NCBI GenBank assembly: GCA_030672285.1
Contig: DAOVGS010000028.1
Location: 1-38,672, forward strand
DNA from: Hadesarchaea archaeon
GTDB lineage: Archaea; Hadarchaeota; Hadarchaeia; Hadarchaeales; Hadarchaeaceae
Reading direction: 5' to 3'
DNA length: 38,672 nt
Part shown: in pieces, positions 1 through 2,515 of the stretch
Position numbering within the stretch: the first letter of the stretch is position 1
How the letters are laid out: every line of letters begins with the position of its first letter
Program-made: the position numbers and the translations under genes
Notes under the pieces: model-generated
The model's database searches: none
What the model saw: only the letters and a program-made list of their open reading frames with translations
What the model was told of the DNA's origin: nothing

Positions 1-297
1 GATGCGCTAAATATCTTGATGGAAGCGAGCCCAGGCGCGGAAGTCTTGGCCGAGATAAATCGGGTTGTCATGGGTGTGCCGGGCGTGCTGGGATGCCACC
101 GATGCCGTGCCCGCAGGGTGGGGTCCCGCATATTTGCAGACGTGCACATCTACGTTGACCCAAAAATGAGCGTAGCTAGAGCGCACGAGGTAGCGACGCG
201 AGTTGAGCACGATTTAAAAACACGAACAGCCGACTTAACCTCGGTGGTCGTGCACATAGAACCAGCTAGAGGGCGCGCACATGGCAAAAAGCGTTGA
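1..297 (+). CDS. Cation diffusion facilitator (CDF) transporter, C-terminal cytoplasmic dimerisation domain (5'-truncated by window edge)
   Basis: Frame is open from base 1; 'VMGVPGVLGCHRCRARRVGSRIFADVHIYVDPKMSVARAHEVATRVEHDLK' matches the ZT_dimer domain pattern. Confidence 0.85.
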   Translation, partial: DALNILMEASPGAEVLAEINRVVMGVPGVLGCHRCRARRVGSRIFADVHIYVDPKMSVARAHEVATRVEHDLKTRTADLTSVVVHIEPARGRAHGKKR

Positions 298-1486
298 GGA
301 AGTTCGGGCTGAGATTCCCTTCTTGCGTACTGGCATCATCTACTTGGACAACGCTGCGACGACGCCGACGCCCCAGCCCGTGCTCGACGCGATGCTCGAG
401 TATTTCCGCGAGTACGGTGCAAACGTTGGGCGGGGCCTACACCGTGCGACGCGACGCGCGACCGAAGCGTTTGAGGCGACCCGTGAAAGGCTCGCTCGGG
501 TGATCAACGCGAAGCCCGATGAAATAGCCTACACCAAAAATACTACTGAGGCCATCAACATCGTCGCCCAGGGCCTGAAGCTGCGGAAGGGGGACAAGGT
601 CGTGACGACGGTGCTCGAGCACCATTCGAACCTCCTCCCATGGCAGCGGCTGGAGCGCGAGCGGGGCGTGAAGCTCGAGCTCGTCCGGGTGCCGCGCGAG
701 TGCCTGATTGATCCGGCTGCAGTCGAGGCTGCGATTGATGATAAAACTCGGCTCATAGCAACCCATCACGTCTCCAACGCGATCGGGAGCATCCAGCCCG
801 TGGAGGAGATCGGCAAGCTCGCCCAGGATCGCGGCGTGCTTTACCTCATCGACGCGGCTCAGGCGGTCGGCCACATGCCCATCGATGTTCGAAAGCTCGG
901 GTGTGATTTCCTAGCCGCCCCCGGGCACAAGGGGCTACTTGGACCCCAAGGTACTGGCTTCCTCTACGCGCGCGAGGACCGCTTGACGGGGCTCGAGCCC
1001 CTCTTGGTCGGTGGAGGCATTGTGGAGCAAGTTGAAGAACACACGCACGATTTGGTCAAACCGCCTCAAATCTTCGACGCCGGGACCCCCAACATCCCGG
1101 GGATCATCGGGCTTGGCCGCGCCTGCGAGTACGTGCTCGAAATCGGAATAGAGCGAATTGCCGAACGCGAGCGAAAGCTGACCGAGCAAATGCTGCGCAT
1201 CGCGGACCTCGAGCACATCGAAGTCTACGGCCCCCGTGGCACCGAGCAACGAGGAGGTGTCGTGAGCTTCAACATCAGCGGTTTGGGGCACCACGATGTG
1301 GCATCAATGCTGGACGAGCTTGCTCAGATAGCGGTTCGCTCGGGGCATCATTGTGCACAACCGACCATGCGCCTTCTGGGAGTTGAGGGCACCGTGCGAG
1401 CTTCGGTTCACTATTACAACCTCGAAGGGGAGATCGAGCGCTTTACGACGACGCTCGAGCAGATCGCACGTGAGTTTGGCGATTGA
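281..1486 (+). CDS. sufS: Class V aminotransferase / SufS-like cysteine desulfurase
   Basis: 401 aa; 'YLDNAATTPTPQPVLDAM', PLP lysine context 'APGHKGLLGPQGTGFLY', C-terminal 'VRSGHHCAQPTM' typical of SufS/CsdA. Confidence 0.9.
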   Translation: MAKSVEEVRAEIPFLRTGIIYLDNAATTPTPQPVLDAMLEYFREYGANVGRGLHRATRRATEAFEATRERLARVINAKPDEIAYTKNTTEAINIVAQGLKLRKGDKVVTTVLEHHSNLLPWQRLERERGVKLELVRVPRECLIDPAAVEAAIDDKTRLIATHHVSNAIGSIQPVEEIGKLAQDRGVLYLIDAAQAVGHMPIDVRKLGCDFLAAPGHKGLLGPQGTGFLYAREDRLTGLEPLLVGGGIVEQVEEHTHDLVKPPQIFDAGTPNIPGIIGLGRACEYVLEIGIERIAERERKLTEQMLRIADLEHIEVYGPRGTEQRGGVVSFNISGLGHHDVASMLDELAQIAVRSGHHCAQPTMRLLGVEGTVRASVHYYNLEGEIERFTTTLEQIAREFGD

Positions 1487-1703
1487 CCCACCCTAAGAGG
1501 GCCGCGAGCGAAGCCCGGTGAGTCCGGAGATCCTCCTTGAGTATCTTCAGTGATGGTTCTTTGTCGATCACGATGGCGAGCTTCAGCAGGAGTTCTAGGT
1601 TAGGGTTCGAGGGATGTGTCGAATTTAACCACTTGCGGACAGCACCCTCGGTGACGCCGATTTTCCTCGCGAGTTCCCCCGTGGAGCCGAGTCCCTCGAG
1701 CAA
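1443..1703 (-). CDS. Small helix-turn-helix DNA-binding protein
   Basis: 'GSTGELARKIGVTEGAVRKWLNSTHPSNPNLELLLKLAIVI' is HTH-like. No ATG/GTG in frame upstream, so a TTG start is assumed; the open frame continues upstream. 3' end overlaps sufS convergently. Confidence 0.6.
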   Translation of the reverse strand: MLEGLGSTGELARKIGVTEGAVRKWLNSTHPSNPNLELLLKLAIVIDKEPSLKILKEDLRTHRASLAALLGWVNRQTHVRSARASS

Positions 1704-1775
1704 AAGTTCAACGAGCTCGGTCCTAGCGGTCCTGCTTAGGTACTCGCATATGCCGTGCCACTCTCCGTTTGTTTT

Positions 1776-1985
1776 CGTACTCCCCGGTACGGATTTACGG
1801 GGAGGTTGTTTATAAGGCGAAAAATCGTACTCCCCGGTACGAACGTCATCGTGGTGCTCGAAATTCGTACTCCCCGGTACGATTTAGCCGTACCCCCCAG
1901 TACGATTTCACAATCGGCGAGCGGATTCGTACTCCCCGGTACGAATGGCAAATTAATTCAGATACCGATCGTACTCCCCAGTACG
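1776..1985. repeat. Array of six 16-bp hairpin/palindromic repeats, consensus CGTAC-TCCCCG-GTACG
   Basis: Copies at 1776-1791, 1826-1841, 1866-1881, 1889-1904 (CGTACCCCCCAGTACG), 1928-1943, 1970-1985 (CGTACTCCCCAGTACG); all in the same orientation with an asymmetric C-rich centre. Confidence 0.95.
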
Positions 1986-2035
1986 GTTCGGCCATCGTCG
2001 TTCAACTTAAATACAACAATTTTTTTGCGAAAAAA

Positions 2036-2515
2036 TCAAACCGGAATTGAACCCGTCTCCTTCTCCGTCTTGAGCACGACCAGCGTTCGCGTGCTGCTGA
2101 CCCCGGGAATTCGGTCGATCTCGTGCAGAACCTTGTTCAGCCCCAGCGTGTCGTCGATGATCAGCTTGAGGAAGAGGTCGTGCTCCCCGACCACCTCATG
2201 GATCTCAAGTACCTCTGGCCTTCGGTTGAGTTGTGCAATTACCTCCCCGCAGGTGCCGGGTGAGGTGGAAACGCCGATAAAAGCCTTCAACTTTTTCCCG
2301 ACCGCCTGAGGGTCAACCACGACGACGAATTTCTTGATAACCCCCGCATCCACCAACCGCTTCACCCGCTTGTGAATCCCCGAGGAGCTTATGCCCAGCC
2401 GCTTGGCGAGCTTGGCGTAGGGCACCTTCGCATCGCCCTGCAGGAGGTTGAGCAGCTTTCGATCGGTCTCGTCCAGTTCCACGATTTCCACTTTTCCAGC
2501 CCGTACGAGGCTCAA
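2036..2515 (-). CDS. Lrp/AsnC family transcriptional regulator
   Basis: 'LDETDRKLLNLLQGDAKVPYAKLAKRLGISSSGIHKRVKRLVDAGVIKKF' HTH plus RAM-like C-terminus 'EIHEVVGEHDLFLKLIIDD'. Confidence 0.92.
   Translation of the reverse strand: MSLVRAGKVEIVELDETDRKLLNLLQGDAKVPYAKLAKRLGISSSGIHKRVKRLVDAGVIKKFVVVVDPQAVGKKLKAFIGVSTSPGTCGEVIAQLNRRPEVLEIHEVVGEHDLFLKLIIDDTLGLNKVLHEIDRIPGVSSTRTLVVLKTEKETGSIPV

Follow-up and report, generated by a model that had tools for sequence, protein, structure and literature searches.

Between a sufS-like gene and an lrp gene of a Hadesarchaea archaeon lies a small helix-turn-helix (HTH) gene with six short palindromes upstream of it, all pointing the same way. The locus raises the question whether these palindromes act as DNA, as cooperative operators of the HTH protein, or as RNA, as serial hairpins in a long 5' leader; a preliminary description had proposed both. 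We analyzed the window, i.e. the whole stretch of 38,672 nucleotides that contains the locus (contig DAOVGS010000028.1 of assembly GCA_030672285.1), together with related genomes. Most likely, the palindromes serve the members of a mobile regulator family to control themselves, each protein recognizing its own word around a G-rich centre common to all.

Repeat array

Exact copies of CGTAC-N6-GTACG occur six times in the window, in a single shared orientation and with start-to-start spacings of 50, 40, 23, 39 and 42 bp (Table 1). The 16-bp units with their coordinates, uniform orientation and spacings are all as the preliminary description gave them, and so are the centres (TCCCCG in four copies, CCCCCA and TCCCCA in one each) and the longer arms of copy 5. 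The arms of copies 2 and 3 measure 6 bp. In 200 simulated sequences with the dinucleotide frequencies of the window, no more than two 5-6-5 palindromes with the same arms occurred inside 250 bp, compared to the six observed. The six repeats are real and chance is excluded. A separate figure of 54 in 100 shuffles refers to matches with up to two mismatches allowed.

The word search proposed in the preliminary description located CGTACYCCCCRGTACG six times in the 958-kb assembly (82% complete), every time within the array at the window's HTH gene, and not once in 60 other genomes searched. CCCC/GGGG is the most frequent centre of 5-6-5 palindromes in the window genome (34 against 16 for the runner-up). 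On one small contig, three copies of TTCACAGGTGTGAAAA (G000:C34:1178-1193, 1241-1256 and 1514-1529) possibly constitute another repeat array.

Table 1. Features of the HTH locus in window coordinates.
Feature	Position	Strand	Remarks
SufS-like class-V aminotransferase, flanking gene	281..1486	+	protein profile
Cassette (HTH gene and array)	1489..2000	-	approximate boundaries; missing from G001 and G004
Cro/CI-type HTH domain	1497..1763	-	profile match; open frame ends at 1443
Operator copy 1 (predicted), CGTACTCCCCGGTACG	1776..1791	+	3' of the TATA box, covering the expected transcription start
TATA box TTATAAA of the HTH gene	1809..1815	-	followed by CAACCTCC, as in the common promoter block of the lineage
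Operator copy 2 (predicted)	1826..1841	+	ends 10 nt upstream of the TATA box
Operator copy 3 (predicted)	1866..1881	+	exact repeat
Operator copy 4 (predicted)	1889..1904	+	centre CCCCCA
Operator copy 5 (predicted)	1928..1943	+	8-bp arms, 1925-1946
Operator copy 6 (predicted)	1970..1985	+	centre TCCCCA
Lrp/AsnC regulator, flanking gene	2036..2515	-	protein profile

HTH protein

The window protein matches the HTH_3 profile above the cut-off (E = 4.9e-7), as do its homologues, and thus carries the HTH_3/Cro-CI domain that marks members of the Cro/CI (XRE) family. The family shares an N-terminal E..SR..R..L motif, the HTH itself and an HPSN motif. AlphaFold2 yielded a helical model with a pLDDT of 92. 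Its top matches in the PDB are XRE proteins, among them C.Esp1396I, the lambda and P22 repressors and 434 Cro, with weak E-values of 0.3-1 and a TM-score of about 0.5; on these weak matches, the predicted fold may resemble the five-helix fold of the operator binders of the Cro/CI type. Distant homologues in other archaea (L320-L326; profile E-values from 4e-8 to 2e-13) are HTH proteins with an SK/SR-x-AR...HPSD pattern.

The preliminary description placed a small HTH gene at 1443..1703. The HTH assignment holds, but the extent does not: the homologous domain covers approximately 1497-1763, and the 86-residue open reading frame from the TTG at 1703 drops the most conserved segment of the family. 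The end of the frame overlaps the 3' end of sufS. In the window frame no ATG, GTG or TTG precedes the conserved first helix at the N-terminus (1703-1763, minus strand). The nearest relative, L008 (L222:100-190), likewise has no start codon before this helix, and a GTG is present one frame off the conserved N-terminus. Since a canonical start codon is missing, the window copy may be damaged or misassembled; an unusual start, a small indel, an assembly error or early decay may account for it.

Putative operator words among homologues

If the array belongs to the HTH gene, repeats should also accompany its homologues. Palindromes of the same build, two to six each, indeed lie close to the gene at all 16 intact HTH loci, differently spelled from regulator to regulator. 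Read toward the centre on the HTH sense strand, they comprise 12 half-site words around a constant G-tract centre. Words with the centre Y-GGGG-R are CGTAC (the window), GAAAC, GTAAC, TAAAC and CGGAC; those with A-GGGG-T are TCAAC, TACAC, TTCAC, TTTAC and TTCGC. ACAAC and GGACA have a mostly reversed centre. The usual core is AC-N-G4-N-GT, and the variation resides in the outer bases.

The more alike two proteins are, the more alike are their half-sites (Mantel r = 0.38, p = 0.0016), and this also applies to the recognition helix alone (r = 0.44, p = 0.016). The type of centre follows the protein clades (p = 2e-4) and has changed twice on the tree, as few times as three states allow. Half-sites are sometimes mixed within one site (gtcaac...gtttac), as expected if a dimer reads each half separately. 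The word of G019 resembles that of the window in its distribution, with six copies that all lie beside its own HTH gene. At 14 of the 16 loci, the asymmetric centre points the same way with respect to the HTH gene. A simple homodimer operator need not conserve such a centre, as the preliminary description had remarked; we agree, and a simple operator leaves the fixed orientation unexplained.

Promoter position and RNA folding

A TATA-like TTATAAA on the minus strand had been noted at about 1808-1818. The box itself is confirmed and can be placed exactly (Table 1), and it belongs to a promoter type that is common in the lineage. Of 12 HTH loci with a recognizable TATA box, 11 have the box 3-26 nt downstream of the end of the nearest operator; the twelfth (L011) carries a diverged copy, TCAACAGAGGTGTTGA, at that position. 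Judged by sequence, the family thus has palindromic operators at its own promoter in the manner of Cro and CI. Five of the window copies lie upstream of TTATAAA, whereas copy 1 replaces the second half of the promoter block.

With five copies upstream of the TATA box, five of the six would lie outside an mRNA that starts there. As RNA, the array folds in an ordinary way (z = -1.08), with an optimum other than six serial hairpins, and an Rfam scan gave no match. For this array, serial hairpins in a long 5' leader thus lack support and were rejected, given a promoter inside the array and an ordinary fold.

A conserved block 3' of the TATA box was considered as a feature private to the HTH genes and was rejected, because it represents the general promoter type of the lineage. 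This block of ~45 bp (ATTTTYCCCCTTATAAACAACCYCCRCSCAAAGCCTCGGCGGGA, with the start codon a few nucleotides further on) is near-identical upstream of at least 12 unrelated genes. It was seen in G000 at L030:4212, L031:1576, L050:7862-, L052:804, L053:14615-, L063:7242-/6506-/5848-, L071:12594, L117:969/5076 and L119:13516-, as well as in the Hadesarchaea contigs L211-L243. It is unusual for the stretch from TATA box to start site to be so well conserved.

Distribution and the cassette

A single-protein scan of genome contigs recovered no relatives; the homologues were obtained by whole-genome profile searches of 28 Hadarchaeota genomes. Their distribution is patchy. Clear homologues were found in eight of the 28 genomes, with a ninth marginal, and many close relatives have none. 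The window genome, G011 (one copy broken) and G017 contain four copies each, the other carriers one each.

The gap between sufS and lrp measures only 26 bp in G001, where the flanks are 94-97% identical to the window, and 41 bp in G004; in both, the bases from about 1489 to 2000 are absent, i.e. a cassette of ~0.5 kb. No gene other than the HTH gene lies between sufS and lrp in the window cassette. At other loci the HTH genes sit amid unrelated genes without a constant partner. Because both relatives examined lack the cassette and the nearest homologue (52-56% identity) occurs in another genus, gain in the window lineage is the simpler reading, and the cassette would have been acquired by insertion rather than lost elsewhere. 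An origin from a plasmid, phage or virus was rejected, as the HTH protein had no match in plasmids or phages, nor at close range in viral contigs. Two viral contigs with similar repeats were also dismissed. L319 has two copies of GTCAACACCCCTGTTGAC as a tandem repeat within an unrelated ORF; L309 has several TTTAC palindromes that form a different, iteron-like cluster of TTTACACCCC(CC)TGTAAA (L309:2700-3060, IMGVR_UViG_3300010167_000175). Neither has a match to the HTH family.

Several details of the HTH neighbourhoods may be added. In two genera, HTH genes of two clades lie shortly 3' of a gene for an EF-1A-like GTPase (L046:11540-13279 and L213:2172-4270), possibly an insertion hot spot. Two near-identical HTH copies lie at the ends of G000 contigs C24 and C29 (L046, L051; last 30 bp), and both contigs stop at the same point, a few bases past the stop codon, as if the sequence that follows were repeated in the genome. 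The G007 assembly contains the T2SSE-tadC junction in two forms, one carrying the HTH gene (C91) and the other just the repeats (C100), and in G003 (C66) the junction likewise has just the repeats; the variants represent either a presence/absence polymorphism or, alternatively, a strain mixture.

Dispersed sites

Unlike the words of the window and of G019, the word of the paralogue on contig C31, TTTAC-ACCCCT-GTAAA, is also found away from its gene. Its sites lie at the starts of an MbhD-like and a NuoK/MnhC-like gene of an antiporter operon (labelled mnhB and mnhC), before a T2SSE ATPase gene, between aroC and the shikimate kinase gene (both named by eye) and upstream of an amidohydrolase. 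The shikimate kinase hairpin may have grown from a local ribosome-binding site instead of having been inserted. In other genera mnhB and mnhC begin right after ribosome-binding sites; in the genus of the window two 17-bp repeats are inserted at these starts, the mnhC insertion being flanked by TTGGACTTCA repeats. The two hairpin repeats occur genus-wide (L050:9036-9100, L050:10040-10110; L245-L257) and seemingly give rise to a short ORF in the leader and to a new start at TTG.

Across the genus, some genomes have the sites as TTCAC...GTGAA and others as TTTAC...GTAAA, with both arms and several loci changed in concert, and the regulator differs as well between G002 and G000. Such concerted changes would fit a reader that acts in trans and drifts in its specificity. 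Absence of the HTH gene was not accompanied by significant operator decay (15 of 18 against 6 of 9 intact).

Proposed mode of action and alternatives

Based on these results we consider it highly probable that the array consists of six DNA operators of the adjacent Cro/CI-type HTH protein, that gene and operators form a cassette of ~0.5 kb, and that this cassette is one of a multi-copy, patchily distributed Hadarchaeota family whose members have private operator words. The operator array suggested in the preliminary description is supported by the homologous arrays, by their position at the TATA box, by half-sites and centres that track the protein and by the predicted fold. A homodimer would contact the half-sites NNNAC...GTNNN, which are spaced by 11 bp from centre to centre, roughly one turn of the helix; indirect support for such binding comes from half-sites that covary with the protein. 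The recognition helix would read the outer bases, which differ between regulators, and the constant G-tract would lie between the two half-sites. Operators just upstream of the TATA box and one over the start site would then allow the HTH gene to regulate its own transcription. Repression is the simplest sign of control, but the upstream-only arrays at other loci would equally suit activation.

Some observations speak against the operator model. A symmetric dimer needs no fixed asymmetric centre, yet 14 of 16 HTH loci and all eight dispersed loci keep the orientation, and a G-tract centre runs opposite to the A-tracts that the 434 and P22 repressors prefer (PMC3317979). The missing start codon of the window HTH and the weak E-values of the structural matches also count against it. 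A bolder scheme, which we regard as rather unlikely, is a self-spreading regulator-operator system. Its cassettes would insert between chromosomal genes, and operator units, possibly with their own ribosome-binding site and start codon (AGGGGTGTRAAG-TTG), would spread to the starts of host genes and put these genes under the regulator; the words would drift in concert in each genome, and the one-way G-tract centre would be strand-specific on transcribed DNA or in RNA.

That the palindromes act as RNA, as transcribed hairpins with a GGGG-containing loop which is bound by the HTH protein or hides a ribosome-binding site, seems improbable to us. Several of the dispersed sites have AGGGGTGTRAAG-TTG on the sense strand, where it could provide a Shine-Dalgarno-like motif and a start codon in or next to the hairpin, so an RNA role is possible there. 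Hairpins adjoin the TTG starts at mnhB, mnhC and other genes, and at mnhB the hairpin pair folds better than its shuffled versions (z about -3). The sense strand carries the GGGG at all eight dispersed loci with respect to the neighbouring gene (p = 0.008, manual count) and at 14 of 16 HTH loci with respect to the HTH gene, whereas one clade has CCCC on this strand. One-sided arm changes favour G-U over A-C by 8 to 4 in one class, but the excess is not significant; the rest run 3 to 2 plus nine other mismatches, and many such changes would abolish base pairing in any RNA (9 of 14 in the classes other than TTYAC). In the window itself, the position of the promoter and the ordinary array fold argue against an RNA role, as do the membership of the protein in a DNA-binding family and the lack of an Rfam match.

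We find it quite improbable that the palindromes are REP- or MITE-like mobile repeats, with the HTH gene as passenger or helper and regulation only secondary. The insertions at mnhB and mnhC relative to other genera, the TTGGACTTCA flanks of the latter, the absence of the cassette from close relatives and the patchy, multi-copy HTH genes between unrelated genes are in line with mobility. However, copy numbers are about ten or fewer, the words change along with the HTH protein and are located at its TATA box, and the window word is not dispersed. A Y1 transposase gene was found neither in the window genome nor in most of the genomes that carry the HTH gene; such an enzyme was rejected as the mover after a search for PF01797 gave no match in the window genome assembly (82% complete). 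Same-orientation repeats next to the gene of a small DNA-binding protein are also what a replication or partition site (iterons, centromere-like) of an integrated element would look like, with the HTH protein as binder. To this we give hardly any credence: the 0.5-kb cassette contains no replication, partition or integrase gene, its neighbours are ordinary chromosomal genes, plasmids, phages and (at close range) viral contigs yielded no protein match, and the operators align with TATA boxes. The DNA operators of a self-regulating HTH protein remain our preferred explanation.

Significance

The fold and the operator logic are known. Outside the subscription literature, we found no report of a family of archaeal Cro-like genes that are solitary, patchily distributed and carried on cassettes, with private words around a constant G-tract centre. 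Literature searches on repeats or regulators of Hadarchaeota returned nothing relevant, and those on regulator-site coevolution no related ideas. The loci provide a natural set of regulator-operator pairs, with one small fold, 12 half-site words and a constant core, that permits tests of how protein-DNA specificity diverges and bears on how orthogonal regulators arise. Operators caught being gained at the starts of archaeal host genes bear on the growth of regulons. The G-tract centre contrasts with the A-tract preference of 434 and P22, and its fixed orientation has no ready explanation.

Comparison with known systems

The best structural matches of the HTH model include the C proteins of restriction-modification systems (C.Esp1396I), which are self-regulating small XRE proteins with operator sets. 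No restriction endonuclease or methyltransferase gene was found as a neighbour, neither in the window, where sufS-like and lrp genes flank the cassette, nor at the other loci, whose ORF lists were inspected by eye. The antitoxins of toxin-antitoxin systems (HipB, HigA, YdaS) are comparable as proteins of the XRE fold with autoregulated operators, and the YdaS profile matches the HTH proteins, below its cut-off. A type II system is defined by an adjacent toxin gene in the same operon; no such gene was found, and the neighbours vary among the loci.

REP elements with RAYT transposases resemble the family in that short palindromes are tied to one protein gene and some are dispersed. Unlike in REP/RAYT systems, no Y1 transposase gene was found in the window genome, the copies are few and the words follow the HTH protein; REP elements exceed 100 copies in typical genomes (PMC2817692). 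The distant archaeal HTH proteins (L320-L326) are alike in their N-terminal and HPS motifs and differ in that no comparable G-tract array lies beside their genes.

The lambdoid Cro/CI repressors (lambda, 434, P22) share the small HTH_3/Cro-like domain and operators that are short palindromes, several to a promoter, whose half-sites are spaced by about one turn; the 434-like layout ACAA-N6-TTGT recurs at L018. Unlike in lambdoid phages, the gene is solitary and chromosomal in an archaeon, with up to six operators and with neither a prophage partner nor a phage match. The 434 and P22 repressors prefer A-tract operator centres (PMC3317979), whereas the Hadarchaeota family has a G-tract centre in one orientation.
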